DNA of 61,922 bases, from positions 1 to 61,922 of IMG/VR virus record IMGVR_UViG_3300032315_001592; one strand, given 5' to 3'. The translations under genes and the position numbers were made by a program. Source of the DNA: a virus. Under the pieces are notes generated by a model, which ran no database searches, was not told the origin of the DNA, and worked only from the letters and a program-made list of their open reading frames with translations. Of this stretch, positions 11,123 through 60,717 are shown in pieces; the first letter of the stretch is position 1; each line of letters begins with the position of its first letter.

Positions 11123-11143
11123 GTCTTTCCCAGTATCCATCCC

Positions 11144-23390: not shown

Positions 23391-23421
23391 GGCAAATCGG
23401 GGTTGAAGGTGAAACGGGCGC

Positions 23422-23459
23422 AAAAAAGCGGCGCAGACAGGTTGCCCTGCCTGCGCCGC
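23422..23459 (-). terminator. Strong intrinsic terminator after the capsid gene
   Basis: A 14-bp stem with one mismatch (GCGGCGCAGACAGG at 23428-23441 pairing with 23446-23459, loop TTGC) is followed on the minus strand by TTTTTT (23422-23427). It lies 35 bases after the major capsid stop and should separate capsid mRNA from the genes below. Confidence 0.85.
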
Positions 23460-25060: not shown

Positions 25061-25275
25061 GGCAGTGTATGGGTGTGTTGCTTGCGTCGGGGCATGACCC
25101 GCCCCGTGGGTGTTTGTTGTGCGGGTGTGCCTTGTCTCGGTGGGCACGGGCGGGCTGGGCGCATCAGGGCGCGGCTCACCACGGCAAAGCCGGGATCGGG
25201 CGTTGATTTAAAAAGGGTCGATCACCCGCAGTCGTGGCGGGTGCGTGTCGGCTCTGTCAGGAGGTGCCTGGTGTG
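25061..25275 (-). terminator. Capsid-scaffold intergenic region with leftward hairpin
   Basis: No gene is seen in these 215 bases. On the minus strand CACCCGC/GCGGGTG (25237-25243 with 25223-25229) is followed after eight bases by TTTTT (25211-25215), a moderate terminator after the scaffold gene. A second palindrome (CGGGGC/GCCCCG near 25091-25110) lies closer to the capsid start and may shape its mRNA leader. Confidence 0.45.
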
Positions 25276-32059: not shown

Positions 32060-34417
32060 TCACACCAGCGGCTCCACCGGCCCCGGCCCCGGATTGAATT
32101 CCTTCATGCTCTCCGGTCTCCCGGTCAGCGGCGCTTCTTCCGTCGGGTCCTGCGTGGGTGGCCCGCCCCTCGGTGCATTCAGCCCTCCCGCCTGCTGCCG
32201 GGCCTGCATCTCTGCCTGCTGCTGCGCGGCCATCTGCTGCGCCTGCTCCTGCTGGAGTTGGGCCGACTGAATCGCCGCAATCGTTTTCTCCGCGTCGTTG
32301 CTGCCGTTGCGCTTGAGCAGATCCGTGAACTCCTCCTGCGTGGCCTGCATGGCGGCCACACTGCCCAGTTGCATGTAGTCCAGAATGATTTTCTTCCGGT
32401 TTTCGGTCTGCGCGATTTCTTCGCTCTCGGTGCTGTCGGTCAGCACGATCTTCACCATGTTGGCCAGCATGTCCGGCTTCACGGTGCGCAAAAACTGCTG
32501 CAGCACCTGCGCGGCAGGCACCTTCATCGTGCTCAGCCCTTCCGCCAGCGGGGCTGTCTCGGTGACGCCATCGGGCTCGGTGACCTCGCCAGCAGCTTCT
32601 GACTGCCCTTCTTCCGTCACGGCTTCCGCTCCTGGTTGGGCCAGCTCCACATCGATCATCAAGTCCCCAAACAATTCTTGGGCAAACTCCATGTCAAAGC
32701 AGTCGCGCTCCACCTGCGCCCACACCCGCAGCAGGTCCTGGTGACTGTCCCGCAGATCTTGCGCCGTGCTGTTCTGCGCGCGCCCGCGCTGGCGCTCCAG
32801 CAGTTGCAGCCCGCCCAGCGTGTTGGCGGCGGGCAGCCCGCTGCTTTCGGCCTGATCCACCGTCATGCCACCTCCGCGACTCGTCATCGTCTGCATGCCC
32901 ACCTGCATGTTCTCGCGCAGCTCCTGCGTCTCCGCCGGCACCACCTTGACGTCGATGATTTCGTTGATGCTCTGCGCGGGGTTGCGCTTCCGCCACAGCG
33001 TCGGGCCGCGCAGTTTCAAGCTTCCGCCCGCCCAGGTCTGCTCCAGCGCGTTCGGGTCAAAGGCCGTGATCTTCCCACTGCTTTGCTGCTCAATGTGAAT
33101 GCGGCACCAGCACGCGTCCACGTGCTGGCTCAGGTCGTCGTGCTGCTCGTACAGCCCTTCGCCATAGGCGCGAAAGTTTACCTTGCCGATCACCGGCATG
33201 AAATACGGATGCAGCCTCACGTCGCTTTCCAGCACCAAACTTGTGGGATCATACGCCACCGGCTGCCGTGTCTCCCAGTCAATCACGCAGAAGACGCGCT
33301 CGCGTCGATTGTCCTTGTTCCAGTCGTACCTCGAGTACAAAAACAGAAACTTTCTCGGAGCCAGCGCGCCGGGATCAATGATGACGTTGTTGCTGTCAGG
33401 ATCTTCCCCCATCTGCGCCATCGGCATCAGCTGATTGGTGGGGTCGCCTTGATTTCCCGACTGCGCGGACGTGCTGTACTTCCGCTCAAATTCTTTTCCG
33501 GCTGCAGTCATGCGACTGCGGTCAAAGCAGTCAAACAGATCGTCCACCGCCATCATCGTGAAGTGCCCCACCAGATCGCTGGCATCCAGGCTCGGCTTGT
33601 TGACCTGCCACAAAAAATCACCGGGATGGATGAACTCAATGACCGCGCCTTGATGGTCTCGGATCACATGCTCCACGGTGTACGTGCGCGTCGTCAAGTC
33701 TGTCGGTGCATGCGGCGTGGTGCCTTCCGGATACTCCACAAACACGCGTGTGTCCCGCTTCAACAGGCTCTGGCGTGGATTCGCCGGATTAACGATCCAT
33801 TCGTCCAGTTCGGTCACCAGCTTGCCGTTGCTATCCCGCAGCGGCACCTCGCCTGGCTGCCGCAAATCTCGCACGCAGCGCACCTGCCGCGGCTCGGTGC
33901 GCAGTTCGCGCTTCTGCACCACCTGACACACACTCTGGCCGATGTTGAGGCACATCAGCACGCTTTCGTTTTTCAGCAGTCGCCCCAGCATCAGGCGCTC
34001 CGCTTGCGCTCGCAGGTACCGCTGCAGCAGCGGCAGTGCCGGATTCGTGTCCTCGCTGCCTTCGCTGCGCACTTCAATGAAGGTGGTGCCGTCCAGACTG
34101 CTGGTCAGCGCGGCGTGATACCCGCCCACAAACTGCTTGGGCATGTTCAGCGACTTGTTGCACATCCGGAACAACACCCCGTCCCGCTCCGGCGGCAGGT
34201 ACAGCCGATCGCTGAAATCGTTGTGGTAGCGGTTCATCCACGCCAGCCGTTTCCACAGCCACGAATCAAACGCGTAATTCCCCGGAGCGCCAGCGTAGCC
34301 CAGGTCCTGGTGAATCTTCAGCGCCAGGTTGTAAAAGTACTCCACCATGCGCGTCTCCGTGTCCAAATCGATGGGCAAGGTCGTCTCAAACATCACGCGG
34401 CGGGCATCCTCAGGCAT
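32060..34417 (-). CDS. Portal protein (large podoviral type)
   Basis: 785 residues. Long alpha/beta core with the order of large podoviral portals: EYFYNLALKIHQDLGY, LWKRLAWMNRYHNDFSD, CMCNKSLNMPK-like stretch, NPRQSLLKRDTRVFVEYP, EHVIRDHQGAVIEFIHPGDF, VIGKVNFRAYGEGLYEQHDDLSQHVDACWC, then a Gln-rich C-terminal coiled barrel (IQSAQLQQEQAQQMAAQQQ). It is first in the leftward virion operon and preceded by a GTAGTCATCCCA element. Assignment rests on size, order and pattern. Confidence 0.7.
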   Translation of the reverse strand: MPEDARRVMFETTLPIDLDTETRMVEYFYNLALKIHQDLGYAGAPGNYAFDSWLWKRLAWMNRYHNDFSDRLYLPPERDGVLFRMCNKSLNMPKQFVGGYHAALTSSLDGTTFIEVRSEGSEDTNPALPLLQRYLRAQAERLMLGRLLKNESVLMCLNIGQSVCQVVQKRELRTEPRQVRCVRDLRQPGEVPLRDSNGKLVTELDEWIVNPANPRQSLLKRDTRVFVEYPEGTTPHAPTDLTTRTYTVEHVIRDHQGAVIEFIHPGDFLWQVNKPSLDASDLVGHFTMMAVDDLFDCFDRSRMTAAGKEFERKYSTSAQSGNQGDPTNQLMPMAQMGEDPDSNNVIIDPGALAPRKFLFLYSRYDWNKDNRRERVFCVIDWETRQPVAYDPTSLVLESDVRLHPYFMPVIGKVNFRAYGEGLYEQHDDLSQHVDACWCRIHIEQQSSGKITAFDPNALEQTWAGGSLKLRGPTLWRKRNPAQSINEIIDVKVVPAETQELRENMQVGMQTMTSRGGGMTVDQAESSGLPAANTLGGLQLLERQRGRAQNSTAQDLRDSHQDLLRVWAQVERDCFDMEFAQELFGDLMIDVELAQPGAEAVTEEGQSEAAGEVTEPDGVTETAPLAEGLSTMKVPAAQVLQQFLRTVKPDMLANMVKIVLTDSTESEEIAQTENRKKIILDYMQLGSVAAMQATQEEFTDLLKRNGSNDAEKTIAAIQSAQLQQEQAQQMAAQQQAEMQARQQAGGLNAPRGGPPTQDPTEEAPLTGRPESMKEFNPGPGPVEPLV

Positions 34418-36340: not shown

Positions 36341-39300
36341 TCACCCACCCGCCCGCGCCTTCGCCATCGCATCCAGCGCCCCCGCCTTCGCCCCAGTCTG
36401 CTGCTTCTGCGCCGCCTCCAGCACCCGCCGTGCCTCCGGCGCCAACTGATTCATCCACCGCTGCTGGTGCTTCTTCAGCTTCATCACGTCCTGCGGCTGC
36501 CGATCCTTGAACAAATCCTGCACGCTCGGGATCTTCGCCCCATTCTTGGCCAGCACGTCCAACTGCGCTTTCACCGCCGGCACGTCCACCTTGGGCTGAA
36601 TCAGCAATCGATACAGTTCCGCCCGCGCCCTTCCCACAGCATCCGTCGGGAACTGCTGCCCCCTCGGCACCGCTGGCAGATTGTTCTTCACCCGATATTC
36701 CGCCACGTCTTCATACAGGTTCGGGTCCGCGGGCCTCACATCCAGCCCCACCAGCGTGCGAATCACCGCCTGCGTCGGATTCCGCGCCGGAGCCAGCTTG
36801 CTCGGACTCTGCTCAAAAGCTTTGCGAATCGTCCGCGCGCTCGTGCCTTCCAGCTTCACCCCGCCAGGCAGCGATACCGTGGGCGTAATCGGCGGGGCCA
36901 GCTCGGTGAACGCATGTTCCACCAGCTTGCCCGTCGCCTCGCCGCTGCTCATGTCGTCTTCATAGATCCGCCGTCCCGTAAAGCTGTCCTTGTTGAAGGC
37001 CGTTTCTGTCAGCAGCCCCAGAAAAGGCGATCCCGTCAGCATCTCACGCGCCTGCCTTGCCAGCCACGGCTCCCGGCTCTCGGCGTCCTCGATGCGCGTG
37101 GCCAGCCAGTCGCCAAACGGATGCGTGTTGCTCAGGTCCCACTGCTGCAGTCCGCCGTTGCCATCCCGGAAAGGCAACAAAATGCTGAACAGCGAAGTAT
37201 CCCCCGCAATCGGGCTCAGCAGACGTCCGGCCCGCCCCTTCAGCGCTTTCATCACGTCTTCCTTGTCCCGCTCGTCCTTGAGCCCCAGCCCCAACGTCCA
37301 CATCAGCAGGCGCATCTCAGCCATGGTCAGCGCGATCTGTGTGAGCAGTCGCGGCAGCGCCAGCGTGGCGATCGTCGCCAGCGGCTTCTTCGTCAGCCCG
37401 TTTTTCAAAATGCGGAAGCTCTCCCGCTTGAAGCTCAAAAACGGAAAGGCAAAACGCCCCAGGAATTTGAGCGTGCCACTGGTCCCCTTATCGTAATACG
37501 GGAACCACTCGCGCACATGCTCCGCGGCCTCGGTGCTGCTCATGCCCATGCTCTTGGCCTTAAGATACGCCGCTGCTTTGTAGATGTCATCCTCCAGCCG
37601 CCACGCCGTGGCCGCGATGTCCAGCGCCTTCCCTGGCGTTTTCAGCAGCCCCTGCCAGCGCCTGGCCATGTGCTCTTTCAGCCCAAACAACCAGCTCATG
37701 TTGCCGTTCTCGGCCTCCCGCAGCACGGTGGCAGCATCCGGCACCAGTTGCCGCAGGCTGCGCTTGATCTCGCCGGTCAGGAAATCCCCGCCCAGCACGC
37801 CTTTTTCATACATCTCGCGGTACTCGGCGCCGCCTTCCCGCAGCACGCGCAGCGCGTCGGTGTAGTACGCCCAGTTGCCGGGATTCAGCGGATTGCTTCC
37901 TGCCATATGCGCAAAAGCAATGTTGCCCACCACGTTGCGCCCATGACTGCCCGGATTGAGCACGGTCTTGCCGGTCTTAAACAGCCCCAGCAGCGCGTCG
38001 TAGAATTTCATGCCCATCCCCGGCAGCTCCGTCAGTTGCTGCACCTCGGCGGCCACGTCATCCCGCACATATTTCCCGGCCAACGCTCCCAGCTTGGCGG
38101 TGTCAGGCATTTCGGTGTAGCCGATGGTCGGCGCGTCCCGCACGTAGTCCGGCACGGCAGCAATGGAGTTGAAAAACTCCGCCGTGGCCACGTCATGCCC
38201 CATTTCGGCGATCTGCCGTGCCACGGAGTAGAACGGATCTTCGATCAGCCCCGCCTTGCTGTGCTCGTCGTAGGTCAGTGGCACCCGTTTTTCAAACCGA
38301 TCCCGCAGCTGCTCCTGCAGGCGCGCCACCACGGCGCGCTGGTCAGCGCTCATCCGGCCCGGATTGTTCAGGCTGTCCCGCGTCACACCCATCAGCGCTG
38401 CCTTGTCGGCCGGCGTCATCCACGGGTAGCGCCCGGCATTGCCCTTTTCAGCGGCTTGCAGGATATGGTCCTTGATGAACTCTTCATAAAACCCGCGCAT
38501 CTGCTCCTGCGTGTCAAACCGATACGTCGGCCGGTTCCGGCTCCCTGGGTGCATCACCAGCGCCGGACTGCCATCCGGCTGCTTCGTCTGCGTGTCCACG
38601 ATGTGAAACGCCGTGGCCGTCTGGGCAAACAGGTTGCGCAGTCCCAGGCTCATCTGCCGCAGCAGGGACTTCTCTTTCTTGACGTCGTGATCGTAGTAGT
38701 GGCTGGTGCCCTCACGCATCGCTTCATACGTCTGCAGGCCAATGCGCCCCGCCCTCACCATGCGCTGGCCCAGCTCATCACGCAGTTTCAGCAAGGCCTC
38801 CGCCACGCGCCGCTCTTCGGGGTTCAGGCTGGCCATCGTCACCCCGCTGTCAATCTTTGGGTTCATCGCCAGGAACATCTTGCGCCGCACCTCCGGATTC
38901 TGCTGCGCCTCACCCACCACCAAATCGCTCAGCTTGGGCTTGCCCGCCAGCGCCCGTTTGCCGATGTCCAGTGCCACCTCATTGCTCAGGCCCTGATTCA
39001 TCGTCATCTCACGCTTCTTGGCCAGCACATCCGCCGGCAGGGACGCATCCGGCACAAGTTGCCGCACCCCATAGTTCCAAAACCGGCGCATCTGCCGCCG
39101 CGTCTGCGCCATGAGCTCATCCCGCTGCGCGGGCTTCATCTTCGCCCCACTTTCCGCGATCTGCCCTTCCACACTCCACCCCGCCAGCAGCTCCAGCGCC
39201 GCATCCACGGGGTTCACCTGCGCCTCACCCGGCAGCGCCTGCTTCTTGATCCACCGCGCCGCATCCGTCACCGCCGCCGCCAACCGCCCCGTCAGCGCCT

Positions 39301-42300
39301 TGTCAATCCGCCCCCAGTCCGCCTTGGCCAGCAGCTCATTCACCTTCCACTGCTTGCGTGGAGCCGCCAACGTGCCACCTACAGCACGCGAGAGGGTTAG
39401 AGAATCAGGGTTGACTTCAGCGCGTTTGATTTTTTTGGAGTCAGCCACAAGCCAAGAATCGTGCTCAATCTGTCCGTAACTGCTGACATCGCCGCTAAAT
39501 TTTAACGCTGTAAATCCTTGTTTCCTCAGTTGATGGGCAACAGTGCGCCTATGATTTTTGTTTGCTAAAAGAGCACCCAAATCGAGGTCATCAGTTCCGC
39601 TCCCCTCTTCCAAATGGTATTCGTTCCATCGGTAAGCCGACCAATCAATATCAAGGTCGTCAACTGACGCGACTTTACCAGTAATGTAAAATGCCTGTGG
39701 GACATTGTTACTGTGAGCATAATCTTTTGCTGCGTTCAGATTATCAGTGAGAAAGATAGAATCTCCGATGTCGTCGATTTGTTGGCCCTCTGTGCGATTG
39801 CCAAAATACAACGGTCCAAAGTATTTAGCCTCCGCCTCAGAAAGACCGCCCGGCGAAGGCTCTGCATTGCGGGCGGCCTTGTCGGGATCGGCCATGCCTC
39901 CACCCTGCCCCTGCTTCCGCGCACTCGCAAGCGCCTTGTCCGTCGCCCGCGCCCCCACGTCCCCGCCAAACACGCTCCGCTTGATCACCTCAAACTCCGG
40001 CATCGTGTGCGTCGTCAATTTCGCCAGCCCCGGCCAGCCCGGCGTGTAGTTGCGCAGATACGCCCCTCGCGCCTCCTCCGCCGTCGCATACCCCAGCATC
40101 ACCTTGTACTCATCCAGCTTCCCTGTGGCTTTCCACTTTTGCCTTGGGTTCTGCAAACCACCGTCAACCACCGTCAACGGCGGCCTGCGCCCTTCAGCCA
40201 CTGTCAACGGCTCCTCTTCCACCACATTCTGCCGCACCACAAACACCGGCCCCGCATAGTCCGCCAGCGTCCCCGGCTTCACAAACACGTCCACCTGATC
40301 CCCGTCCGCACCCTTGGTTCCCTTCAGGTACCCATAGTGATCCCTCAGCACCGGCCACTCCGGCCTGCGCCTCGACCCCGCCGGATTCTCAATGCTGATC
40401 TCATGCCCGCCAATGCTCACATGCCCCTTCGCATAGTTCCCCGCTTCCTTCTGCGCCGCCGTCGGCTCCGGCAGATCATTCCTCGGCGATGTCGCCGCCT
40501 CATGCGCCGCCCGATCCACCCCCGTAGCGCGAGCTCCCGTTCTGAGTAGTGTAGTCCCGCCTTTAGGCGGTTCTGGGCGAGCCACCCCCTGCTTCCGCGC
40601 ACTGTACAGCACCTGCGCATTGTCCTCATCCGTCGCCACAAACTCGTCTTCCTTCGCATCCCACTCCCAGCGCCCCGTTGCCTCGATCTGCGCAATGACC
40701 TCCTTCATCCGCGCCTCAATCTCCGGCTCATACGTTGCCACCACATGATTCCACGGCCCGCCGTCCATCTCCCAGCGCAGCAGCTTGTCCTGCGCTTTCT
40801 CCATCGCTTTTTCCTCAGCGGCGGTCAGCTCTTCATCCGCCTCCTGACGCGCTGAAAAATCAGCATACGCCTGGCTCGCGGCCCGGTAGGGCTCAGGATA
40901 CCACGGCGCAAACTCCTCGCTGGCGTCATGCTCCTGCAGCCACTGCCACCGCTCATCCGCTTCGATCTTCGCCCGCAGATCCTCCGGCAGTTGATCCACC
41001 GCCTCGCCCTTGTTCTGCGCCTGGTGCCACTCCTGCACCTGCTCAATTGTCTCCAAAATCGGCTTCTGCTTCCGCGCGCTGAACAGCGCCTGCCCAGCCT
41101 TCACGCCGTCACGCATGGCGGGCGTGACTTCGACTTTCCAAAACGGCGTGGCACTGGCCTTGGTGTATTTGGCACGGGCGTAAGCCGCCCGCAGGTCGTC
41201 ATCGATAGCCGCGCCTGGGTACACCTCATCTGCAAATTGCTCAAGGCTGGACCACATGGGATTGCCACTGCCAATGAGTTCCGCTTTCTGCACCCCAGCC
41301 CCCCACTGCTTCACATACTTCCCAATCTCCTTGGGCAATATCTGATCATAAAACCCTTTCATGCCCTCGCCGCCCACTTTCAAGCCCTCGCCCGAAAGCT
41401 GCTTCACGCCGGGATAGTCCTCGTTCTCGGTGGATTCTCCTTCACCGTTGATTATCTTTTGCGCGATATCCTTGCCCACCAGATCGGACACTTCCGTTGG
41501 CGACAACCCTTCCCGCTCAATCAAAGTCTCACTGCCTTTCTCCGCCGTCAGCGTGTAGGTGTCGCCCGTCTTGAGGTACTTGATGGCATCGATCTGCTGG
41601 CTCAGATCATACCGCTCCGCCTGCGTTTCGCCCGTGGTCCAGCCAATCCACTGCTTACCATCACTCACCGCATCCGCCAGCGCCCGCTTAAACATCTGCA
41701 GCGGCCACGTCGTGCGGAACGGGGCGTCTGGGATGGTTTCCTCGGTTTTTTCACGCTCGTCGTGAATCAAGTTGTGGTCGGTGTCTGGGGCAGCGGTTTC
41801 AAGCCTTCTCCAGTAAGGGCCGGATTCGTGCGTGGTAGCGCTGGGAGCGTGGTAAAGATGGAGGGCATCTGCACGCACTGCTTCTGGAAGCTGGCGTAAG
41901 TATTCTTGGAAAGCAGGAGTGAGTTCCCCTCGGTACCCCTTCTCCCGCCCCTCCTGGTGCCGGTCGCTTTGAATCTCCTCAATGAACGTCCCCGCCTGCC
42001 CGTCCGCGTCCCTCCGGTCATTGAGCCGCATGTGCGCCACGTAGTTGGGCACGTTGCCAAAATGCCTGGAAGTGTAGTTGGTAGCCGGAGAAGGTTCAGG
42101 CTGTTTTTCGCGCAGCACGTAACTAAGGGCGTCGCCGGCATTGGGGTATTTAGCGCGGGCAATTTGAAAAACTTGGCCGGGCGCTTGGATGAACCAAAAA
42201 CGTGTTTGGCTGTCTTTGGACTGTTCTTGAACCAGCGGATCATCTTGTTCGAGTACCTTGGTATTGAATCCGGTGTATTCTTCAACCACAGGCGGCATCG

Positions 42301-45300
42301 CCAGCACCACCTCCCGGTAGTTCTCCCCACCCGGCAATTGATACTGGCTGAATTTCGGCTGCGACTGCCCGGCCGCATACTCCGCCGCCCGCGCTTGGTA
42401 CGAGGCTCTCACCCGCGCCACCAGCGGGCGCATCTCACTGGACATCAACTCTTCCTGCCCCTTGGAAAGTTCCCCACGCGCCGCGCTCAGGGCGTAATAC
42501 TCCGCCCCCGACTGCGTCATGCCTTCAGCTCTCGCTTGGGCGATCACGGCGCGATTGGCGTCTTCCAGATTGGTTTGCGATCCCCCCAGCCTCACCTCCT
42601 CCAGCCTCACCGCGCCATCCGTGCGCAAATACTCCAGCACCGCCGCCTTGCTCACCGGCTCCGCCTGCTGCTGCACCCACGGCACGATCCCGCTCCACTT
42701 CAATTCCTCCGCCTTCACCGCACTGCTCGGATTGCTCACAATCCCCACCACCGTCTTTGCATCCGCCCGGTTCGGCATCTTCTGCTCAATCACCTGCGCC
42801 AGCTTCGAATAAAAAGCATTCCCCGCCTGTTTTCTTGGAGAAAAAAGCGCTTGGAATTCTGAATCCTGTTCATTTCCGGCATTTTTTACCGCCCATCTTT
42901 TACCAGCCTCTGTCTGTTTCCTGGCACTGCTCAGTCGGCCCGGCTGCGCAAACAAATCCCCACCACCAAACATCTGAGTCTGTCCAATATCCCCCATTGT
43001 CCCCACCAGCGGCTTCTCCGCCCGCGCCTGCAACTTTTCGCGCAGTACCTTGCGCTCCGCCTCAGCTTTGAGCTCCGCCGGCGTGGTCGCTTCTAAACTG
43101 AAATCACCCGTAGGGGCGGCATCATTTGACAGTAACTTTCCTCCCTGCTCTTGAATCCACTGCTCCGCCTTGGCGCGCGGTCCCTTAAACAACACAGTAT
43201 GCGAAGGTTTGCGTTTCCAACTCAGTTTGGAAATGCCTGTGCCTCCTTCAATCCCAAACACTTTTTTTGCCTGCCTTACATTACCCTCATCATCGATCCA
43301 ATAGCGAGGAATCTTGAAGTCCGGCAATCCTGAAATGCTGGAATCCTGTCCGGCTCCGGTTCCGGCATTCCCTTGCTCCTTCATTCCTTTGCCAGAAACA
43401 GCCACATCCTTACGCCCAGACTGCTCTCCGAGCCCCAGCGTGTTCCGGTCCCCCAGAAAGTTCATCTCATCCTCACCAAACAATCCCGGACCCGCCTGCT
43501 TCCTTGGGCTTCCTAAGCCCGCGTAAAAATCACCTTTCTGGTTTACGCTAAAAGCATCCACATACAGCCCCTGCTGCCCGTCAATCGTCTGCACCCCAAA
43601 CGTCGTACCATCCCTTAGCGTCACGCTCTGAATCTGCATCGGCCCGTCCGGGCCCATGAACTGCGCCGGGTTGGCATCCGGATCAAACTCCTCACCCGCC
43701 GGCACGGGCTCGCTGTCCATCCGCAGCACCTCCACGCGATGCATCTTCCCATCGTCCGCCTTCACCATCATCACGTCCCCAGGCTGCATCTCATGCGGTT
43801 TGATATAAATCGGCCCCTTGGCCGTGCTGCGCTCAAACGCCACGCGCTGCCGTTCCAGCCGCGCAAAATACGCCTGCTCTTCATCCTGCACCGTCGTGGC
43901 GCCGCCTTGTTTCTTGGCTTGGTAGCGCTTGATCACGTCCTTGATCTTCCGTGCCAGCATCTCGCCGGTCACGTCTTCCTCGGCCACACCGGGGAAATAC
44001 CCCGCGCCATGCAGTTCCTGCAGCGCCTGGTCCAGCGTGCTGCCGTTGCCGTTCTTGAACACCAGCCCCGCATAAAACCTCGGGATTTCCGCCTGCCGAA
44101 TGTCATCCCAGTCACCGATTTTGCGGCGGTCCTTGCCGTCCTGCGCCATGCGCGCCAGCCAGCCTTCAGACGGGCGTGTGATCCGGCCATGGTAGCGATT
44201 GATCCACACCACCACGTTTTCCTTGCCGTTGTCAGGGTCAGGAATCGCCGCCATCCCGCGAATCGCATTCTCACTCGGATTGCGCAGCGCGCCCTTCCTC
44301 TCGGGCCGTACGTCCATTTCCGCATCCGCCGCCATCGCCAGCGCCGCCTCATCCTCATTGACCGGCTTGGTTTTTTCTTTTTCTTTCACCTTTTTCGGCT
44401 GGGCACTTTCCGGCGGCTCCACGTCATCCAAGCCCTCCTTCTGCAACCGAATCCCTGCCTCCTTCGTCTTGCGCATCACCGCCTCGGCGGCCGTCAGCCG
44501 GTCCTCCCACAGTTCGCGCAGATCCTGCGGCAGCTTGTTCATCTCGCGTCGCACAAAGTTCACGTACCGACTCAGCATCAAATACATCCGTTGCAGCAAC
44601 CCCACGTCGCGAATCGCCGCATTCTCACTGGTGAACGTCCCCTGCCGGATCATCCGACTGGCTTCAAAGTACAGCATGTAGGCCTCGTCATCGGTCAAAT
44701 CCGCCGGCGGCTTGGCCGGCACGCTGCCGTCCTTGATCCCCACCGCAAAGTACTGCTTCCACGCCGCGTTGAACACCCCTGGCTGCGCTGCATGGATGTC
44801 CCTGGCCAAATCAATGGCCTCGCTCCGACTCATCACCATCAGGTCGGCCCGGTGCTGCCACTCCTCATTCAGCGCGCGCTCGAGTTCCGCATCCGTGATG
44901 CCTCCCGCCTCCGCAAACGTCGCCGGGTCCACCAGCAATTCCACGCCCGTGGCCCGTCCTTGCGCATCGTAGTCAATCACCTGCGCCGCCATGCCCCCAC
45001 CCGGCAGACTGCCATTAGGAACAATCGTCACGCCCTCAAACAGACGTCCAAACTTCGTGTCGATGAGCTCCTCCACCTTGTTGAAGCGACGCACCACGCC
45101 CTTGATCCTCTCCGCCGCCGCTTTCTTCCCACTTTCCGGCAGCCCCTTCGCCAGCGACTGCATCCCCGCAATCACCTCCCCCTGCGCCCGTTTCCAGTCC
45201 CCCCGCTCAATCAGCGCCCCCGCAGCGCGAGCCTCCGGCGTGCGCGAACTCTGGCTCCGGTCTCCGCCTTCCGTACTGGGAGCGCCAGTTTGCAACTGGC

Positions 45301-48300
45301 TCCGGCTCTGGCCTCCGGCTTCTGACAGTATTGTAGTCCCGCCTTCAGGCGGTTCCGGGCGAACGTCCCCACCCCCCACCAATTCATCACCAGCCCCCGT
45401 TTGGCCAGCCAATCCTTGTCCAACTCCGGTTCCGGTTCCCCCATTCCCTTGCTCCTTCATTCCCTTGCCAGAAACAAGCGCGTCCTTCGTCCCAGCACCC
45501 TCAGCCCTCCGCATCACCGGCTTTTCCGCCCGCGTCTCCGCCTTGAACTGCCCCCTCACCATCCAACGCGACATCTTCGCCGGGTCCCGCTGAAACCCTT
45601 CCGCCTTCATTGCCTCCTCAAACGCCGGGTCGATCATCTGCACCTCATACCTTGGCCCCATCACGCCCATGCGCCGCACCACCCCACGCGCCGCCCGCAG
45701 TGCCTGCTCACCACTCAGCCCACGACTCGCCAGCTCCGCCCCAATCTCATCCACCCGCGCCTCCACCGTCGGATCAAACGCCTCCTCCGTAGCGCGAGCC
45801 TCCGGCTTGCTCCGGCTCTGGCCTCCGGCTTCTGACAGTATTGTAGTCCCGCCTTCAGGCGGTTCCGGGCGAACGTTCCCAGCGCCTCCTCCTACCGCCG
45901 AATCTCCACCAGCAGCCGCGACACCACGTGCCGCCTGAATCCCCGCGCCAGCAGCCATTTCCGCGCCTGCCCTTCCGGCATCTTTGCCAGCAATTGCCGC
46001 TGTGTCTCCGTCAACTCGTCCTCTTTCATTCGTCAATGTCCCTTCCGTGTTTGGTTTCTGTTCTGGTTTTCCCTCCGGTTTCTGCAAACCACCGTCAACC
46101 ACCGTCAACGGCGGGCTTGCACGCCCTTCAGCCACTGTCTTCAATTCTTTGATCTCCCTCCGCCTCTCCACCTCGCTCTTCCCGATCCGCGCCGCCACCG
46201 CAGGCAACCGCTTGCCTAGGTTATCAATCTGTCGCTGCGTGATGATCACTTCTCCGTCCTCAATCACCACCGGCTGAAACCCATCGGGCCGCACGCCCTT
46301 CTTCCACACGCTCGTGCGCCCCGCCTGCGGGTCCTTCTTGTCCAGCGGCACCGACTCATAATGCCCCGGCGTCCCATCGCGATTCAACCCCACCTGACGC
46401 AGTTCCTCGTCCGGGAAATCTTCCAGCGTCTCTCCCTGCGCCAGGCGCAGCAAAACTTCCGCCTTCGCCTTCGTCGCCGCCACCGTCGCCGCCGACATCC
46501 CCGCCGGCGCAAACCCCGCCAACTCCGCTTCCGCCTCCGTAGTGCGAGCCTCCAGCTTGCGCGAGCTCTGGCCTCCGTCTCCGCCTTCCGTACTGGGAGC
46601 GCCAGTTTGCAACTGGCTCCGACTCTGGCCTCCGTTTCCGGTTCTTAGTATTGTAGTCCCGCCTTTAGGCGGTTCTGGTCGAACGTCCCCAACCCCCGCC
46701 AATTCATCACCAGCCCCCGTTTGGCTAGCCATACCTTGGCCAGCCCCATCAAGATCAGGCCCATTCCCTTGCTCCTTCATTCCCTTGCCAAAATCAGCGC
46801 GCCCATCTCGCCCACCGCCCGACATCATTTCAAACCCACCCCCCATCACCGCGCCCGCTATCGCCGCCGTGACCGTTTCTTCCCAAATGCTGCTCCAGCT
46901 CTTGGTCGGATCATAGCTGTGCCTCTGAATAACCCCCTGAATCAGCTGGTCCGGCGCTTCCTCCAGCGCCCCTTCCTTGAGCGCACCCTTGCCCACCGTG
47001 GTCAGCCATTGCTTCAGCCCCTGCTTGAATCCGGGCTGCCTCAGCACGCTTTCCATGCCGTTGACCCCACCCGCCGCTGTCAGCGCATACGTGGCCACGC
47101 CAGACGCCAGCGCGGGCACCAGCGCCGCCTTGCGCGCTTCTGCCGTGCTCAGTCCTCGATTCTCCCGGTAGCCCTGCACTGCATCGCCGTACACCTGCCC
47201 AAAGGTCTGTGCGCCTGCTGCTGCCGCCGCGCTTTGCAGCGCCAGCATCTCACTGCGCGTTGCTGCACCCACCGCTCCGCCCACGCCCAGAGCGGGCGCA
47301 CTGCTCACCAGCATGCTGGCTCCCTGATTCACCCACTGCCCTGTGGGCAGTGCTTGCGATTCCGCACTCATCTGCGCCACGTCCCGGCCCAGGCTCTGGT
47401 TCAATTTCAAAGCGTCATCACTCACCACGCTCGCTATCCCCGTGGCACTCTGCGCCAGTCCCAGCACGCCTTGCGCTGCTCCGAGCAATGCCTGATTCCA
47501 GCGCACCTTCCACGCGCCCGTGCTAAACACCCCACTGTTTTCCTTTTCAAACAACTTCAGCTTTTCTTCATCACTCAAGCCTTCATGCAGCTTGCGCGGT
47601 TGCGGCTGCCTGCCGTTGGCCAGGGCTTCCATCTTTTCCTCGCGCGTCGGCGGCACTTCCGCCTCTTCCCAGTCGCGAAACACCCCCAGCGGCCGCAGCG
47701 TGTCCAGCTTCAGCTTGATCGCCTGGGCCTTGAGTTCAGGCTGCATCTCCAGCGCCTTGGCTTTTTCTGCCTCACTGGCTCCCGCGCCGGCCACGGCAGC
47801 GGCATACGCCTCGTCATCGGTCCAGCGCTCCGGATTCACCAGCACGCGCCCGGCACTGTCCATGCGCACGGGGGCCTCGGTGTCTCCGCGACTCCAATCC
47901 AGCAGCGCGGCATCCCTCAGCATCTTCACGGCTTGGACGCGATTCTCCTTCGTCTTGGCCATGCCCAGACCGTCCAGCAGGCTTTCCACGCCCTGCCCCG
48001 CCGCTTCCGTTTCCACGGCCAGCGGGTCCCGATCAAATTCGGCGTTCAAGTCCACCCCCGCAGGCATCTTTTGCGCAGCAGCAGCATACGCCTGCTCGAT
48101 GGCGGGCCCCAGTTTCTTCTGCATCTGCTCGGCTTTAGCCGCAATCTTCTCCCGCTCTTTCCCAGCCCACTCCTGCAAGCTCACATCATCCCCGCCCTGG
48201 TGCTTCTCCACGGCGGCATCCACCTGCGCCAGCTCATCTCCCAGCTTGGCACCGGGCAGACTGTTGAGCTGCTCATAGACCTTCTGCCGCTCGGCTTTGG

Positions 48301-49975
48301 CGACCCCTCGGGCCGCTTCCTGCTTTTTTTGCAGCACACCTCCACCGGCTTGGATGAGCTTGGCCGCCCGTTCCAGTTCGCCCGCCTCGGCATCGATCCG
48401 GTCCATCTCGGACTGATTATGCTTCTCAAACGTCCCCGTTTTCTCCAGCGCCTGCTCCAGTTGCGGCGCCAGATCCTTGAACACGTTCACCGTGGTACCG
48501 TCGCCCGTGGTGTACGGAATCAAATCCGCCGCCTTGTGCGGCTGCTGCAGTCGTTGCGCATTGCGCGCCAGCACGCCATCCACCTCACCATTCACCGCCT
48601 GGGTCTGCTGCCGCAGCGCATCGCGCCGCGCCTGCCAGTCCACCTTGCGCTGCTCAAAGTCCTGCATCTGCCCGTCCAGTGCCTGATTCAGTGCCTCCGG
48701 CTCCAGCCCTTCAAACTCTTGCAGCACCTGCGTCTCATACGCCGCCGGATCATCCCGCTGCAACATCAGCTTCGTTAGCCTCGCCCGGCGCTCCTCATCA
48801 CTCAGCGAATCATCCTCCGCCAAAGCCGAAATCCGCCCCTCAATCACCGCCTTGCGCACCGCTTCCGTGCTCTGGACTCCGGTTCCGGGTATTGTAGTCC
48901 CGGCTTCAGCCGGTTCCGGGCGAACGTCCCCAGACCCCCCACCCAATGAATTCCGACTCCGGTCCCCATTCCCTTGCTCCTTCATTCCCTTGCCAAAATC
49001 AAAACCACCCTTCGTCCCAGCACCCTCTGCCCCCCTCACCCCCATCACCACCGGCGGCATCGCCGTCTTCAGCCCACGCTTCTCCCTCTGCAACCAGCCC
49101 TGCACCTCGTTGTTGGCCCGACTGTACTCCAGCTTGCGCACTTCATGCGCCCGCACCAGCGCATCGGCCGCATCCGCCTCGGCTTGCACCCGGTCACGTT
49201 CCGCCACCAACGCAGCACGGGCCGCTGTCCGTTTGGCGATCGCTGCCCCATCCAAAATCTGCCCAGCTTCAGTCTCGCCGTTCTCAATCTCGGCTTCGAG
49301 CATCTTGATCTGCGCATTGGCCTTCTTTACCGTCTCCAGCTTAAAACGGTGCTTCAGCCCCAGGTCCTGCCCTTCCAGATCCAGCCCTCGCATCACCTGT
49401 GCGGTCTGATCATCCACCGCCGTCAACGCCGCACCCTTCTGCTCGCGCCAGTCCTTCGCCGCAGCATCAAACGCCTCTGCCTTGTCCTTGGCCACTTTCT
49501 CCGCCTGCAGCGCCTGCCACTGCTCATCCGTGTGCCGCGGCACCATGTTCCCCTCGGCATCTTCCACCCACGGGCGCTGCTCCTTGAAATACTTCACCCG
49601 CAGCGCGTCATTCTTGGCCTTGCGCTCCTTCTGCGCCTGCCATTCCTCGTCCGAGTACTGACTTTGAATCAATCCATCGGCATCCGTGTAGATGGGCCGT
49701 TTTTCACGGCGCGCTTGCAGCTCCATCTCGTTGTTGCGCACTCGCTTGGCCTCTTTCTCAGCATCCGCCTGCCCTTTTTCATAGGCCTTGGCCGCGTCCT
49801 CCGCTGCCGCTTCCTGCTCTTTGGCGGCCAGAGCTAAACGCTTGGACTCCGCCCGGTACGCAGCTTCTTCAATCGCTGCCCTCGGATCTTCCACGCTTGC
49901 GGTGCGACTCCCTCCCGTGGGCTGGGTGTAGCGATTGCGTCGGGCTTGCAGCAAGTAATTGAGGTCGGCAGGCAT
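36341..49975 (-). CDS. Giant polyvalent protein (4544 residues) with pyrophosphatase-like, EIQSD-type, ART-like and LPD38-like domains
   Basis: One uninterrupted frame. 1-320: charged coiled coils (MPADLNYLLQARRNRY start). About 860-1050: hydrophobic/helical block (MLVSSAPALGVGGAVGAATR). About 1500-2150: conserved polyvalent modules, including ALNEEWQHRADLM, a possible degenerate zincin. 2379-2966: GTFIEEIQSDRHQEGREKGY module with WTTGETQAERYDLS and KVGGEGMKGFYDQILP. 3160-3270: inorganic pyrophosphatase-like polyvalent domain (NDLPEPTAAQKEAGNY, DHYGYLKGTKGADGDQVDVF). 3351-3538: possible ADP-ribosyltransferase-like domain (SIFLTDNLNAAKDYA). 3538-4544: LPD38-like (WRLEDDIYKAAAYLKAKS, FPYYDKGTSGTLKFLGR). 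Such proteins are thought to enter the cell with phage DNA. Seven RKQ motifs mark domain borders; many dispersed repeats form the linkers. Confidence 0.85.
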   Translation of the reverse strand: MPADLNYLLQARRNRYTQPTGGSRTASVEDPRAAIEEAAYRAESKRLALAAKEQEAAAEDAAKAYEKGQADAEKEAKRVRNNEMELQARREKRPIYTDADGLIQSQYSDEEWQAQKERKAKNDALRVKYFKEQRPWVEDAEGNMVPRHTDEQWQALQAEKVAKDKAEAFDAAAKDWREQKGAALTAVDDQTAQVMRGLDLEGQDLGLKHRFKLETVKKANAQIKMLEAEIENGETEAGQILDGAAIAKRTAARAALVAERDRVQAEADAADALVRAHEVRKLEYSRANNEVQGWLQREKRGLKTAMPPVVMGVRGAEGAGTKGGFDFGKGMKEQGNGDRSRNSLGGGSGDVRPEPAEAGTTIPGTGVQSTEAVRKAVIEGRISALAEDDSLSDEERRARLTKLMLQRDDPAAYETQVLQEFEGLEPEALNQALDGQMQDFEQRKVDWQARRDALRQQTQAVNGEVDGVLARNAQRLQQPHKAADLIPYTTGDGTTVNVFKDLAPQLEQALEKTGTFEKHNQSEMDRIDAEAGELERAAKLIQAGGGVLQKKQEAARGVAKAERQKVYEQLNSLPGAKLGDELAQVDAAVEKHQGGDDVSLQEWAGKEREKIAAKAEQMQKKLGPAIEQAYAAAAQKMPAGVDLNAEFDRDPLAVETEAAGQGVESLLDGLGMAKTKENRVQAVKMLRDAALLDWSRGDTEAPVRMDSAGRVLVNPERWTDDEAYAAAVAGAGASEAEKAKALEMQPELKAQAIKLKLDTLRPLGVFRDWEEAEVPPTREEKMEALANGRQPQPRKLHEGLSDEEKLKLFEKENSGVFSTGAWKVRWNQALLGAAQGVLGLAQSATGIASVVSDDALKLNQSLGRDVAQMSAESQALPTGQWVNQGASMLVSSAPALGVGGAVGAATRSEMLALQSAAAAAGAQTFGQVYGDAVQGYRENRGLSTAEARKAALVPALASGVATYALTAAGGVNGMESVLRQPGFKQGLKQWLTTVGKGALKEGALEEAPDQLIQGVIQRHSYDPTKSWSSIWEETVTAAIAGAVMGGGFEMMSGGGRDGRADFGKGMKEQGNGPDLDGAGQGMASQTGAGDELAGVGDVRPEPPKGGTTILRTGNGGQSRSQLQTGAPSTEGGDGGQSSRKLEARTTEAEAELAGFAPAGMSAATVAATKAKAEVLLRLAQGETLEDFPDEELRQVGLNRDGTPGHYESVPLDKKDPQAGRTSVWKKGVRPDGFQPVVIEDGEVIITQRQIDNLGKRLPAVAARIGKSEVERRREIKELKTVAEGRASPPLTVVDGGLQKPEGKPEQKPNTEGTLTNERGRVDGDTAAIAGKDAGRAGAEMAAGAGIQAARGVAAAGGDSAVGGGAGNVRPEPPEGGTTILSEAGGQSRSKPEARATEEAFDPTVEARVDEIGAELASRGLSGEQALRAARGVVRRMGVMGPRYEVQMIDPAFEEAMKAEGFQRDPAKMSRWMVRGQFKAETRAEKPVMRRAEGAGTKDALVSGKGMKEQGNGGTGTGVGQGLAGQTGAGDELVGGGDVRPEPPEGGTTILSEAGGQSRSQLQTGAPSTEGGDRSQSSRTPEARAAGALIERGDWKRAQGEVIAGMQSLAKGLPESGKKAAAERIKGVVRRFNKVEELIDTKFGRLFEGVTIVPNGSLPGGGMAAQVIDYDAQGRATGVELLVDPATFAEAGGITDAELERALNEEWQHRADLMVMSRSEAIDLARDIHAAQPGVFNAAWKQYFAVGIKDGSVPAKPPADLTDDEAYMLYFEASRMIRQGTFTSENAAIRDVGLLQRMYLMLSRYVNFVRREMNKLPQDLRELWEDRLTAAEAVMRKTKEAGIRLQKEGLDDVEPPESAQPKKVKEKEKTKPVNEDEAALAMAADAEMDVRPERKGALRNPSENAIRGMAAIPDPDNGKENVVVWINRYHGRITRPSEGWLARMAQDGKDRRKIGDWDDIRQAEIPRFYAGLVFKNGNGSTLDQALQELHGAGYFPGVAEEDVTGEMLARKIKDVIKRYQAKKQGGATTVQDEEQAYFARLERQRVAFERSTAKGPIYIKPHEMQPGDVMMVKADDGKMHRVEVLRMDSEPVPAGEEFDPDANPAQFMGPDGPMQIQSVTLRDGTTFGVQTIDGQQGLYVDAFSVNQKGDFYAGLGSPRKQAGPGLFGEDEMNFLGDRNTLGLGEQSGRKDVAVSGKGMKEQGNAGTGAGQDSSISGLPDFKIPRYWIDDEGNVRQAKKVFGIEGGTGISKLSWKRKPSHTVLFKGPRAKAEQWIQEQGGKLLSNDAAPTGDFSLEATTPAELKAEAERKVLREKLQARAEKPLVGTMGDIGQTQMFGGGDLFAQPGRLSSARKQTEAGKRWAVKNAGNEQDSEFQALFSPRKQAGNAFYSKLAQVIEQKMPNRADAKTVVGIVSNPSSAVKAEELKWSGIVPWVQQQAEPVSKAAVLEYLRTDGAVRLEEVRLGGSQTNLEDANRAVIAQARAEGMTQSGAEYYALSAARGELSKGQEELMSSEMRPLVARVRASYQARAAEYAAGQSQPKFSQYQLPGGENYREVVLAMPPVVEEYTGFNTKVLEQDDPLVQEQSKDSQTRFWFIQAPGQVFQIARAKYPNAGDALSYVLREKQPEPSPATNYTSRHFGNVPNYVAHMRLNDRRDADGQAGTFIEEIQSDRHQEGREKGYRGELTPAFQEYLRQLPEAVRADALHLYHAPSATTHESGPYWRRLETAAPDTDHNLIHDEREKTEETIPDAPFRTTWPLQMFKRALADAVSDGKQWIGWTTGETQAERYDLSQQIDAIKYLKTGDTYTLTAEKGSETLIEREGLSPTEVSDLVGKDIAQKIINGEGESTENEDYPGVKQLSGEGLKVGGEGMKGFYDQILPKEIGKYVKQWGAGVQKAELIGSGNPMWSSLEQFADEVYPGAAIDDDLRAAYARAKYTKASATPFWKVEVTPAMRDGVKAGQALFSARKQKPILETIEQVQEWHQAQNKGEAVDQLPEDLRAKIEADERWQWLQEHDASEEFAPWYPEPYRAASQAYADFSARQEADEELTAAEEKAMEKAQDKLLRWEMDGGPWNHVVATYEPEIEARMKEVIAQIEATGRWEWDAKEDEFVATDEDNAQVLYSARKQGVARPEPPKGGTTLLRTGARATGVDRAAHEAATSPRNDLPEPTAAQKEAGNYAKGHVSIGGHEISIENPAGSRRRPEWPVLRDHYGYLKGTKGADGDQVDVFVKPGTLADYAGPVFVVRQNVVEEEPLTVAEGRRPPLTVVDGGLQNPRQKWKATGKLDEYKVMLGYATAEEARGAYLRNYTPGWPGLAKLTTHTMPEFEVIKRSVFGGDVGARATDKALASARKQGQGGGMADPDKAARNAEPSPGGLSEAEAKYFGPLYFGNRTEGQQIDDIGDSIFLTDNLNAAKDYAHSNNVPQAFYITGKVASVDDLDIDWSAYRWNEYHLEEGSGTDDLDLGALLANKNHRRTVAHQLRKQGFTALKFSGDVSSYGQIEHDSWLVADSKKIKRAEVNPDSLTLSRAVGGTLAAPRKQWKVNELLAKADWGRIDKALTGRLAAAVTDAARWIKKQALPGEAQVNPVDAALELLAGWSVEGQIAESGAKMKPAQRDELMAQTRRQMRRFWNYGVRQLVPDASLPADVLAKKREMTMNQGLSNEVALDIGKRALAGKPKLSDLVVGEAQQNPEVRRKMFLAMNPKIDSGVTMASLNPEERRVAEALLKLRDELGQRMVRAGRIGLQTYEAMREGTSHYYDHDVKKEKSLLRQMSLGLRNLFAQTATAFHIVDTQTKQPDGSPALVMHPGSRNRPTYRFDTQEQMRGFYEEFIKDHILQAAEKGNAGRYPWMTPADKAALMGVTRDSLNNPGRMSADQRAVVARLQEQLRDRFEKRVPLTYDEHSKAGLIEDPFYSVARQIAEMGHDVATAEFFNSIAAVPDYVRDAPTIGYTEMPDTAKLGALAGKYVRDDVAAEVQQLTELPGMGMKFYDALLGLFKTGKTVLNPGSHGRNVVGNIAFAHMAGSNPLNPGNWAYYTDALRVLREGGAEYREMYEKGVLGGDFLTGEIKRSLRQLVPDAATVLREAENGNMSWLFGLKEHMARRWQGLLKTPGKALDIAATAWRLEDDIYKAAAYLKAKSMGMSSTEAAEHVREWFPYYDKGTSGTLKFLGRFAFPFLSFKRESFRILKNGLTKKPLATIATLALPRLLTQIALTMAEMRLLMWTLGLGLKDERDKEDVMKALKGRAGRLLSPIAGDTSLFSILLPFRDGNGGLQQWDLSNTHPFGDWLATRIEDAESREPWLARQAREMLTGSPFLGLLTETAFNKDSFTGRRIYEDDMSSGEATGKLVEHAFTELAPPITPTVSLPGGVKLEGTSARTIRKAFEQSPSKLAPARNPTQAVIRTLVGLDVRPADPNLYEDVAEYRVKNNLPAVPRGQQFPTDAVGRARAELYRLLIQPKVDVPAVKAQLDVLAKNGAKIPSVQDLFKDRQPQDVMKLKKHQQRWMNQLAPEARRVLEAAQKQQTGAKAGALDAMAKARAGG
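39350..43510 (-). other. Seven (S/A)(A/P)RKQ motifs at domain borders of the giant protein
   Basis: Motif copies, leftward order with residue number of the first amino acid: SPRKQ 43496-43510 (2156), SARKQ 42914-42928 (2350), SPRKQ 42827-42841 (2379), SARKQ 41066-41080 (2966), SARKQ 40589-40603 (3125), SARKQ 39911-39925 (3351), APRKQ 39350-39364 (3538). Most follow L-x or LF/LY/LA. They separate recognised domains almost exactly. Interpretation as processing sites is inference. Confidence 0.6.
40151..40210 (+). repeat. D-type repeat inside the giant gene
   Basis: CAAACCACCGTCAACCACC then GTCAACGGCGG and TTCAGCCACTGTCAACGG. On the coding strand it reads LTVAEG...PPLTVVDGGLQNP and falls inside the pyrophosphatase-like domain. 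A near-identical copy at 46081-46139 is read in the same frame (VAEGRASPPLTVVDGGLQ). Confidence 0.8.
45225..45475 (+). repeat. Composite A-B-C-R2 repeat inside the giant gene, copy 1
   Basis: A (45225-45246), B (45275-45305), C (45331-45365) and R2 (45441-45475) in order. On the coding strand it gives GKGMKEQGN, VRPEPPEGGTTIL, SRSQLQTGAPSTEGG and TPEARA. It matches 46541-46795 over about 250 bases, including the non-palindromic spacer, at a distance of about 1320 bases (a multiple of three). Confidence 0.85.
45784..45875 (+). repeat. Composite A-C repeat inside the giant gene
   Basis: A (near 45786-45808) and C (45840-45872) without B between them, read as VRPEPPEGGTTIL and SRSKPEARA. A shortened form of the A-B-C unit. 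Confidence 0.75.
46541..46795 (+). repeat. Composite A-B-C-R2 repeat inside the giant gene, copy 2
   Basis: A (46541-46565), B (46590-46621), C (46651-46685) and R2 (46761-46795), same order and spacing as copy 1. Read as GKGMKEQGN, VRPEPPKGGTTIL, SRSQLQTGAPSTEGG and SRKLEART. Confidence 0.85.
48893..49003 (+). repeat. C and R2 repeats inside the giant gene
   Basis: A C variant with the stem CCGGCT tc AGCCGG (48893-48926) is followed by R2 (48966-49003). The two stem bases changed relative to CCGCCT/AGGCGG are complementary, so pairing is kept. Coding reading: VRPEPAEAGTTI and GKGMKEQGN. Confidence 0.8.
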
Positions 49976-51337: not shown

Positions 51338-53203
51338 CTACCCCCAAGACTCATCCTTCCCTCCACCACCCCAAGTCTTTCCCTTCGCCCCCCATTCACT
51401 CTGCGGCCGGTGATTTCCTTCCGCCACTTCCACCACAGGCACTCGATGCGCATATCGTGTGGCCGCTGGCAAACACTGCACGCCAATGGCGAAACTCATC
51501 ACCCAGTCGTCGTGATACCCACCTGCCGCTTCTTTTCGCCCGTTAGCTTTTGTGATGAAATTTTGTAGCTCTTCCAGCAAACGCGGACACCCGATCTCAA
51601 TCTCGCGCTCTCTCACATAGCGCTGCAAGTTGGCGATGATCTGCTCCCGCAGCGGTTCCGTGGTCAGCCAGCCACGCTTGCGCAACTGCTTGCCTTCACC
51701 AATGCGTCGCTGCTCTTCGCTCTCCGTGCGCGTCCAAAGATTGTGCACGCCGGCGGCATTCAGCAGGGCGATCACCCCAAACGCGCTGTTCACTTCCGGC
51801 ACCACCAAACAATCTCCATACATCCGATGCAAATCGGCGATCCACCCAATCAGCACGTCAATGTTCACTCGACACTCCGGTTTAATGGCGGCGACCAGTC
51901 GCGCTTTGTGCATCGTGCCGCTTATGTCCACATACGCCGCGCGGATCACTCCCACGGCATGGCAGTCCTGTTTGCGCTCCCCGGCACTCTGCTCGCCTTC
52001 CATGAAGTCGGCATGGATCAAATAGCTGCACCCCGGCACAGGCACCTCCCACTGCCTCAGCCACGCTTCCATCAGCCCCGTTTTCACAAACACACCGTTC
52101 TCAATCTTCCCCGTCTGCGGTCCGGTTCCCGTGTTCACCTGCGTGGCCAGTGCCTCCAGTCCGGCATGGTCAAACACCTGCGTACCGCTGCTCACAAAAG
52201 CGCTGTCCATGCTGTGCGGGTATTCCTGGTCAAATTTCTCTTCATCTCCACTAAAATGCGGCTCGGCCAGCTTGCGCCGACGCCACGCCAACCTGCCCGG
52301 CGTGATGTTCTTCGGCCCGTATCGCTCAATCAACGACACCTCACGCTCCGTCAGCGTGGCCATGATCTCACCGGCCTCGCTCTCCGTCGTGCGGTGCGTG
52401 TCGTCGTAGTCTCGATTCTCAAACCACGCCGCAAAGCACTTGATGAAGCCATTGCCTCGGAGTCCGTTCTGCCACTGCACCAGCGTCACAGCCTTGAGGT
52501 AGGTCTTGTAATACACGCCCTGCTTGCCGTTGGCTGTGCTCTCCAGCGCCATCCACGTCCCCGGCAAGTCCGGCACCGAGTTGGCGATCGATTGAAACAC
52601 TGTCTCTCCCGTAGATTTGCCGCTGCTGCGGTAATGCGCTGTCTCCGAGGAAATCAACACCTGCGGCGTGCCGCCCTGCCCAGCTCGCGGGTCATTAGCC
52701 GTTTCTTCAAACAGCGTCGTGCCATGGCTGAATTTGCGCGGGAATCCCATGCAAGCCGCCGTGTTACCCCAGCGATGATCTCCAAACCGATCCTGTTGAT
52801 AAGCCACTTCCCACATGTTCAGCAGTCGCGGCGTCGTGTTCTTGTCATCGGCGATCACCGCCACCTCGATGGGGTGATTCCTTCCCATCCAGTAAGCTCG
52901 GCACATGTGAAAGCGACTGCTTCCGTCCTGGCGCACCTTGCAGGCCAGCGTCCTCATCGGCACCTTGTCCGCCTGCTGCTGCTCCAGCGCGGCTTCCAGC
53001 CGGTCCTGCAACGGGGTCATCACCGGAAAATCCAGGTTCCCATCCTCCCCAAACGCATTCTTCAGCGGAATGCGTTGGCATAGCTGAAACCAGTAGCGAA
53101 ACGAGTTCCTTCCTGCTGCCACATGCAACTGCTCCTCATCCGCTCCGTCACTGACCCCGCCACGGGCCAGTTGGTTATGCATCCGGCTCGGCTTCCCGCT
53201 CAT
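51338..53203 (-). CDS. terL: Terminase large subunit
   Basis: 621 residues. ATPase part: degenerate Walker A region (ACKVRQDGSSRFH), VAVIADDKNTT, and Walker B-like VLISSETAHY with the catalytic Glu. Nuclease part: LIHADFMEGEQS (first Asp), LVVPEVNSAFG (Glu) and GYHDDWVMSFAIG (final Asp pair), the RNase-H-like triad. It drives DNA into the capsid through the portal. ATGA overlap with the small subunit gene. Confidence 0.88.
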   Translation of the reverse strand: MSGKPSRMHNQLARGGVSDGADEEQLHVAAGRNSFRYWFQLCQRIPLKNAFGEDGNLDFPVMTPLQDRLEAALEQQQADKVPMRTLACKVRQDGSSRFHMCRAYWMGRNHPIEVAVIADDKNTTPRLLNMWEVAYQQDRFGDHRWGNTAACMGFPRKFSHGTTLFEETANDPRAGQGGTPQVLISSETAHYRSSGKSTGETVFQSIANSVPDLPGTWMALESTANGKQGVYYKTYLKAVTLVQWQNGLRGNGFIKCFAAWFENRDYDDTHRTTESEAGEIMATLTEREVSLIERYGPKNITPGRLAWRRRKLAEPHFSGDEEKFDQEYPHSMDSAFVSSGTQVFDHAGLEALATQVNTGTGPQTGKIENGVFVKTGLMEAWLRQWEVPVPGCSYLIHADFMEGEQSAGERKQDCHAVGVIRAAYVDISGTMHKARLVAAIKPECRVNIDVLIGWIADLHRMYGDCLVVPEVNSAFGVIALLNAAGVHNLWTRTESEEQRRIGEGKQLRKRGWLTTEPLREQIIANLQRYVREREIEIGCPRLLEELQNFITKANGRKEAAGGYHDDWVMSFAIGVQCLPAATRYAHRVPVVEVAEGNHRPQSEWGAKGKTWGGGGKDESWG

Positions 53204-60701: not shown

Positions 60702-60717
60702 AATCGTCCTTCGCCCC

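Follow-up and report, generated by a model that had tools for sequence, protein, structure and literature searches.

Phage-specific border tags between the cargo modules of a giant polyvalent protein: candidate processing sites of a putative virion-carried polyprotein

Are the giant polyvalent proteins of phages used as single chains or as separate, cut effectors? The question has stood since these proteins were first described. Polyproteins of RNA viruses carry several unrelated enzymes per chain, with a common junction recognition sequence that differs between viruses; in phage polyvalent proteins a zincin-like metallopeptidase domain is common, occurring in ~36% of members. Processing of polyvalent proteins by a zincin-like peptidase has been proposed earlier, on other grounds (PMC5512222). 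In phage P1, DarA, DarB and DdrB are large, virion-packaged proteins; the prohead protease Pro cuts DarA, and DdrB is reportedly processed (PMC5512222, PMC9024508 and PMC12810830). The virion RNA polymerase of phage N4 (gp50), likewise a giant that is ejected, combines an HExxH domain with disordered linkers (PMC12633501). Here we analyse a stretch of viral DNA of 61,922 nucleotides (positions 1 to 61,922 of IMG/VR record IMGVR_UViG_3300032315_001592, hereafter the window), whose giant polyvalent protein bears seven copies of the pentapeptide [SA][AP]RKQ. There is good support for reading the chain as a mosaic whose module borders these copies mark; they are the window lineage's version of a cargo-module border tag.

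36341..49975, minus strand: giant polyvalent protein, 4544 aa, encoded between the terminase and portal genes

The first-pass annotation had counted seven [SA][AP]RKQ copies, and all seven lie exactly where it placed them. Composition predicts 0.035 copies in the chain, and 500 shuffles gave a mean of 0.036 and a maximum of 1. RKQ alone, judged post hoc among all tripeptides, is only moderately unusual (its score was reached by 3.5% of shuffles), so the weight rests on the pentapeptide context and on the comparison with relatives. RKQ occurs an eighth time, as HQLRKQ at residues 3482-3486; this copy falls in the ART-like region and is not preceded by (S/A)(A/P). None of the window's other likely genes has [SA][AP]RKQ. 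Residues 1590-2165 and 2345-3544 were modelled with AlphaFold, and these models, of moderate quality (mean predicted local distance difference test score, pLDDT, of 61 and 59), place all seven tags in linker-like stretches (pLDDT ~26-48) and, wherever confident domains were modelled, at the edges of those domains. On these models the junctions would lie in flexible, exposed linkers, as those of a polyprotein should.

43496..43510, minus strand: border motif 1, SPRKQ, residue 2156
42914..42928, minus strand: border motif 2, SARKQ, residue 2350 (pLDDT block ~33)
42827..42841, minus strand: border motif 3, SPRKQ, residue 2379, N border of the EIQSD-type module (pLDDT block ~31)
41066..41080, minus strand: border motif 4, SARKQ, residue 2966, C border of the EIQSD-type module (pLDDT block ~36)
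40589..40603, minus strand: border motif 5, SARKQ, residue 3125, N border of the InPase domain (pLDDT block ~26)
39911..39925, minus strand: border motif 6, SARKQ, residue 3351, C border of the InPase domain (pLDDT block ~48)
39350..39364, minus strand: border motif 7, APRKQ, residue 3538, N border of the LPD38-like C-terminal part (pLDDT block ~26)

Do the intervals between motifs correspond to separate modules, as had been claimed? Five of the six do; the 29-residue interval from 2350 to 2379 does not, and much of it is accounted for by a copy of a 12-copy interspersed DNA repeat (D5).

42941..43333, minus strand: small conserved segment between motifs 1 and 2, residues ~2215-2345
42883..42913, minus strand: copy of the interspersed DNA repeat D5, in frame, lying between motifs 2 and 3
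41081..42814, minus strand: EIQSD-type module, residues 2388-2965
40610..41068, minus strand: small all-helical module, residues 2970-3122
39956..40498, minus strand: InPase domain, residues 3160-3340 (Pfam PF18823, E=3.6e-31; alignment A2)
39386..39853, minus strand: weakly matched ART-like domain, residues 3375-3530 (PF18760, E=0.045, under its cut-off)
36344..39343, minus strand: C-terminal LPD38-like part, residues 3545-4544

The earlier module names fared unequally. By its sequence match to PF18823, the identity of the InPase domain is certain, and the EIQSD-type module recurs at 158 viral loci and 53 bacterial or archaeal genome loci; the ART assignment is weak, and the LPD38-like label found no match in Pfam or NCBIfam. 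The small segment between motifs 1 and 2 shares ~45% identity with its counterparts in two relatives (L001 and L104), and the C-terminal part carries the border motif neither within it nor at its end. Inside the InPase domain, positions 40153-40208 hold an in-frame interspersed repeat copy (translated LTVVDGG), part of a ~30-aa insertion that five homologues lack.

The closest relative, L001, is 92% identical across the C-terminal region, and comparison with it shows the motif staying at the borders while modules exchange, the pattern that the first-pass annotation had proposed to look for among homologues. At the borders matching window motifs 4-7, L001 has SPRKQ, SPRKQ, SAQKQ and AAPRKQ; its counterpart of motif 1 is SPKKQ, which follows an extra inserted stretch. 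The slot upstream of motif 4 holds the EIQSD module in the window and an SNF2/methyltransferase-type segment in L001, and the slot between motifs 6 and 7 holds the ART-like domain in the window and unrelated sequence in L001. The all-helical module between motifs 4 and 5 is retained at 82% identity, flanked in L001 by SPRKQ copies. The L001 giant gene lies in two overlapping frames (1-3963 and 3878-11701), which may be a real frameshift or an assembly error.

How do more distant giants mark the same borders? Giants that share the EIQSD module, the InPase domain and a homologous C-terminal part use different motifs at equivalent positions. In L086 (LxASxR, 6 copies), LSASNR and LFASQR flank the EIQSD module, LAASDR and LASAGR flank the InPase domain, and LYASNR precedes the C-terminal part. 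In L104, LGARAMR and LFSRSMR flank EIQSD, and LGSRAMR and LAARAMR flank InPase, with L[GA][SA]RAMR at four borders. The pattern [LVI]x[AS][AS]xR occurs in 13 copies in L100 (1.6 expected) and 17 copies in L103 (2.1 expected), and giants of the QFMPAE class hold 86 tags against 3.0 expected. Among named phages, the whole EIQSD module was found only in Dolichospermum phage Dfl-JY45, whose giant has three F[SAY]R[AS][AP] copies, compared with ~0.5 expected for a slightly looser pattern. A putative recognition sequence is repeated at the module junctions of a giant, as in a polyprotein.

To quantify this pattern, 80 of the 158 viral EIQSD loci were kept, and 46 non-redundant giants entered a concerted-border test, in which the hexapeptide at the C border of the module was scored by its best match within 37 residues around the N border. 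Scores averaged 16.7 within the same giant and 7.0 against other motif classes. When each of the 20 motif classes was represented by a single giant, the observed value was 15.95 and the permutation value 7.3 +/- 1.0 (p=5e-5); an independent set of 19 bacterial or archaeal genome loci gave 12.6 versus 7.0 +/- 0.9 (p=5e-5). Because the two ends of the EIQSD module are not homologous to each other, common ancestry of the module cannot explain their matching. The classes include LFSARK, LYSPAD, LFSRRA, QFMPAE, MFQQDR, NFFQQD, LFQKN, QFTP and LFASQR. Extending the concerted test to InPase was tried and rejected: nearly all of the 80 loci retrieved were DarB-like and motif-less, so that only the L104/L105 contig is informative.

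The tags are confined to the giants. The lineage motifs tested are essentially absent from the other open reading frames (ORFs) of the same loci, with a single match, in L059, that falls in a separate 1742-aa ORF which is probably the remaining part of a split giant. In L028 and L034-L037 the EIQSD module is the last part of its protein; there it ends in LFVGG and lacks the tag used elsewhere in that protein. Protein-terminal EIQSD modules (L028, L034-L037, L078, L079, L083, L089 and L094) share a glycine-rich tail of the LFVGGMAAVV or LFAVGGAGAA kind, possibly a separate C-terminal signal.

What could such a tag be for? It sits at borders, persists through module exchange, differs by lineage and is uniform within a phage, and its recognition by a protein-level reader is likely. 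One phage-specific partner, most likely a protease, would recognise it, and proteolytic processing is the best single explanation, to which we give a probability of about one half. Cutting would release a backbone of ~2150 aa from the N-terminus, four or five pieces of cargo (~160-590 aa each) and ~1000 aa from the C-terminus, either during or after packaging or post-ejection in the host. The first-pass annotation had taken the motifs for processing sites between modules. Their place at module borders is borne out by the swaps, the predicted linkers and the concerted replacement elsewhere, whereas cleavage is the most economical reading only.

Which protease might read the tag? In most relatives the natural candidate would be a zincin domain that the same protein carries in its N-terminal backbone. 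A domain with HExxH or HExxxH occurs in most giants, as a rule within the N-terminal third and ahead of the tags, and that of L047 scores above the Pfam M48 cut-off. The window giant has a zincin-like region in which EEWQH is the counterpart of the HExxH of other giants.

44426..45208, minus strand: zincin-like region, residues 1590-1850, EExxH and a downstream E..RM (alignment A3)
44852..44866, minus strand: EEWQH, residues 1704-1708

EExxH replaces HExxH across the window lineage (L105, L086 and L186), and residues E1704, E1705, H1708 and E1771 are invariant in the five lineages of alignment A3. This conservation argues against simple decay. Processing in the window lineage would depend on a variant form of the active site or on another protease. 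The region is predicted to form strands followed by helices (pLDDT ~80). Its best matches in VIA-align were helical bundles (Z 5.8), with a weak match to TTHA0227 over the right residues that is below the trust level (Z 4.4); a sequence profile of the region retrieved nothing relevant from PDB.

A prohead protease was also considered as the reader and rejected: S78/ClpP-type matches were found in 0 of 30 records (the window and 29 relatives, several of them fragments), other types (S77, S49) not having been searched. The same site would be expected in capsid or scaffold proteins if a prohead protease cut it, and S[AP]RKQ does not occur in the other ORFs of the window. A specific co-evolution of motif and zincin was likewise set aside; a first partial Mantel test looked positive, but the specific effect vanished once flanking backbone segments were added. 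Tag similarity goes with the backbone of the giant (r ~0.5) rather than with the cargo module (regression coefficient 0.03, p=0.34), which indicates that acquired modules receive the recipient's tag. Each lineage may keep a private border code, with the recipient's tag at both ends of acquired modules and a co-evolving, lineage-specific protease that frees them, a tentative reading to which we give somewhat less than an even chance.

Several observations weigh against processing, or against the zincin as its agent. No cleavage product has been observed. L045, L065, L070, L077 and L088 do not show a concerted motif, and the border motif is absent from the DarB-like phages POI1126, PBC5 and Atu_ph08. 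The window giant lacks a canonical HExxH, and a structure search of its EExxH region against PDB returned no match at E<=0.001, so the zincin fold is not established. Motif similarity tracks not only the peptidase but also the regions that flank it, so the comparison singles out no coupling specific to the peptidase. Finally, the N4 virion RNA polymerase, a giant with an HExxH domain, is reportedly packaged unprocessed (PMC5512222).

The same confinement to giants, repetition and lineage specificity would also fit a binding peptide, through which uncut modules dock to a phage-specific capsid, portal, ejection protein or backbone. Capsid-targeting peptides are real, as the N-terminal 30 residues of P1 DarB suffice for targeting (PMC9024508). 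That signal, however, is single and N-terminal, whereas the tag occupies the joins and does not follow a module that ends the protein, and up to 17 copies per chain are many for a targeting signal. We regard docking or packaging as unlikely, though it is the strongest of the alternatives to processing.

Could the repeated linker instead be a footprint of shuffling, that is, DNA that serves as recombination homology and spreads by copying, with no reader at the protein level? The window is rich in interspersed repeats, and three of the seven tags (residues 2966, 3125 and 3351) share 76-83% identity across 29 nucleotides (D17). The remaining copies differ in codon family; across all seven, Ser is encoded by AGC, AGT or TCT and Arg by AGG, AGA, CGG or CGC, a mixture that argues for selection at the protein level. 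Same-residue pairs among the window tags have identical codons in 47 of 89 cases against 40.9 expected, so recent copying is not indicated overall. Pooled over 15 giants, 293 of 530 pairs share codons where 225 are expected, with the excess in some lineages (L021, L086), to which copying contributes. The motifs of L047 and L039, by contrast, conserve the residue pattern and not the DNA, and true DNA repeats within the giant gene, such as those encoding GKGMKEQGN and RPEPPxGGTT, are near-identical in nucleotides, unlike the tags. Shuffling alone is accordingly a doubtful account, and less probable than docking. Least probable by far is that the tag is a structural end-piece, the terminal strand or turn of each module: most classes do start with a hydrophobic-aromatic pair (LF, QF, MF, LY) beside the module end, yet unrelated modules of one phage share a tag, the same module has different tags at both ends in different phages, and the motif lies in low-pLDDT stretches.

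The setting of the giant gene agrees with a virion-carried protein. Upstream, and on the same strand, lie the genes for the small (53200-53976) and large (51338-53203) terminase subunits; the portal gene (32060-34417) lies downstream, and the major head protein is encoded at 23495-25147, both also on the giant's strand. Such a neighbourhood of head and packaging genes is the one expected for virion-carried polyvalent proteins (PMC5512222). Like them, the chain combines several unrelated activities (an InPase domain above its cut-off, the EIQSD-type module and a weak ART-like match), and the distant relatives of its C-terminal part include gp101 of Cellulophaga phage phi38:1, which bears a structural-protein annotation. 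From gene order and homology, the giant is a candidate virion cargo.

The window contains further repeats. Its two ends (1-265 and 61706-61922) are built of one shared 24-nucleotide tandem repeat; the genome may thus be a closed circle, or it may have been broken in the array. A 12-copy interspersed palindromic repeat of the GTAGTCCCGCCTTCAGGCGG type occurs within and between genes, at sites that include 45322-45368, 45832-45878, 46642-46688, 48883-48929, 40540-40586, 22775-22821 and 23066-23112; five in-frame copies in the giant encode RPEPPxGGTT, and two lie in ORF 22689-23423. A third family, which reads GKGMKEQGN in the giant, numbers at least seven copies genome-wide (43349-43419, 45425-45495, 46745-46815, 48950-49020, 22833-22903, 7848-7918 and 60649-60719), and a fourth, TTTTCACCGCCCATTTTTTTGCC, has 12 copies.

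The concerted tags make the question of one chain or several effectors testable, since they predict exact cut or docking sites. They also give module boundaries without a structure, and the pieces between them are a route to unknown effector domains. If a protease reads the tags, its specificity would be predictable from sequence. If each lineage does keep a private code, injected polyvalent proteins would be true polyproteins whose cleavage codes are self-compatible and mutually incompatible.

How does this locus compare with known systems? The class of polyvalent proteins and the idea of their processing by zincins are already known; the concerted, phage-specific border tags are new to the open-licence literature searched, in which we found no earlier description of such a motif. 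The window giant resembles the phage polyvalent proteins in its giant chain, its unrelated domains including InPase, and its place beside terminase and portal genes, and differs from them in its border motif, which the available portion of PMC5512222 does not describe, and in the EExxH of its zincin-like region. From the P1 proteins it differs in that P1 relies on the prohead protease Pro and, for DarB, on a capsid signal at the N-terminus, whereas the window and its 29 relatives lack an S78/ClpP-type match; DarB-like giants, in turn, lack the repeated border motif. Compared with the polyproteins of RNA viruses, the chain described here has a presumed protease and presumed cuts and is a candidate virion cargo rather than a whole proteome, with a putative recognition sequence that, as in those viruses, is common to the junctions of one chain and differs between lineages.

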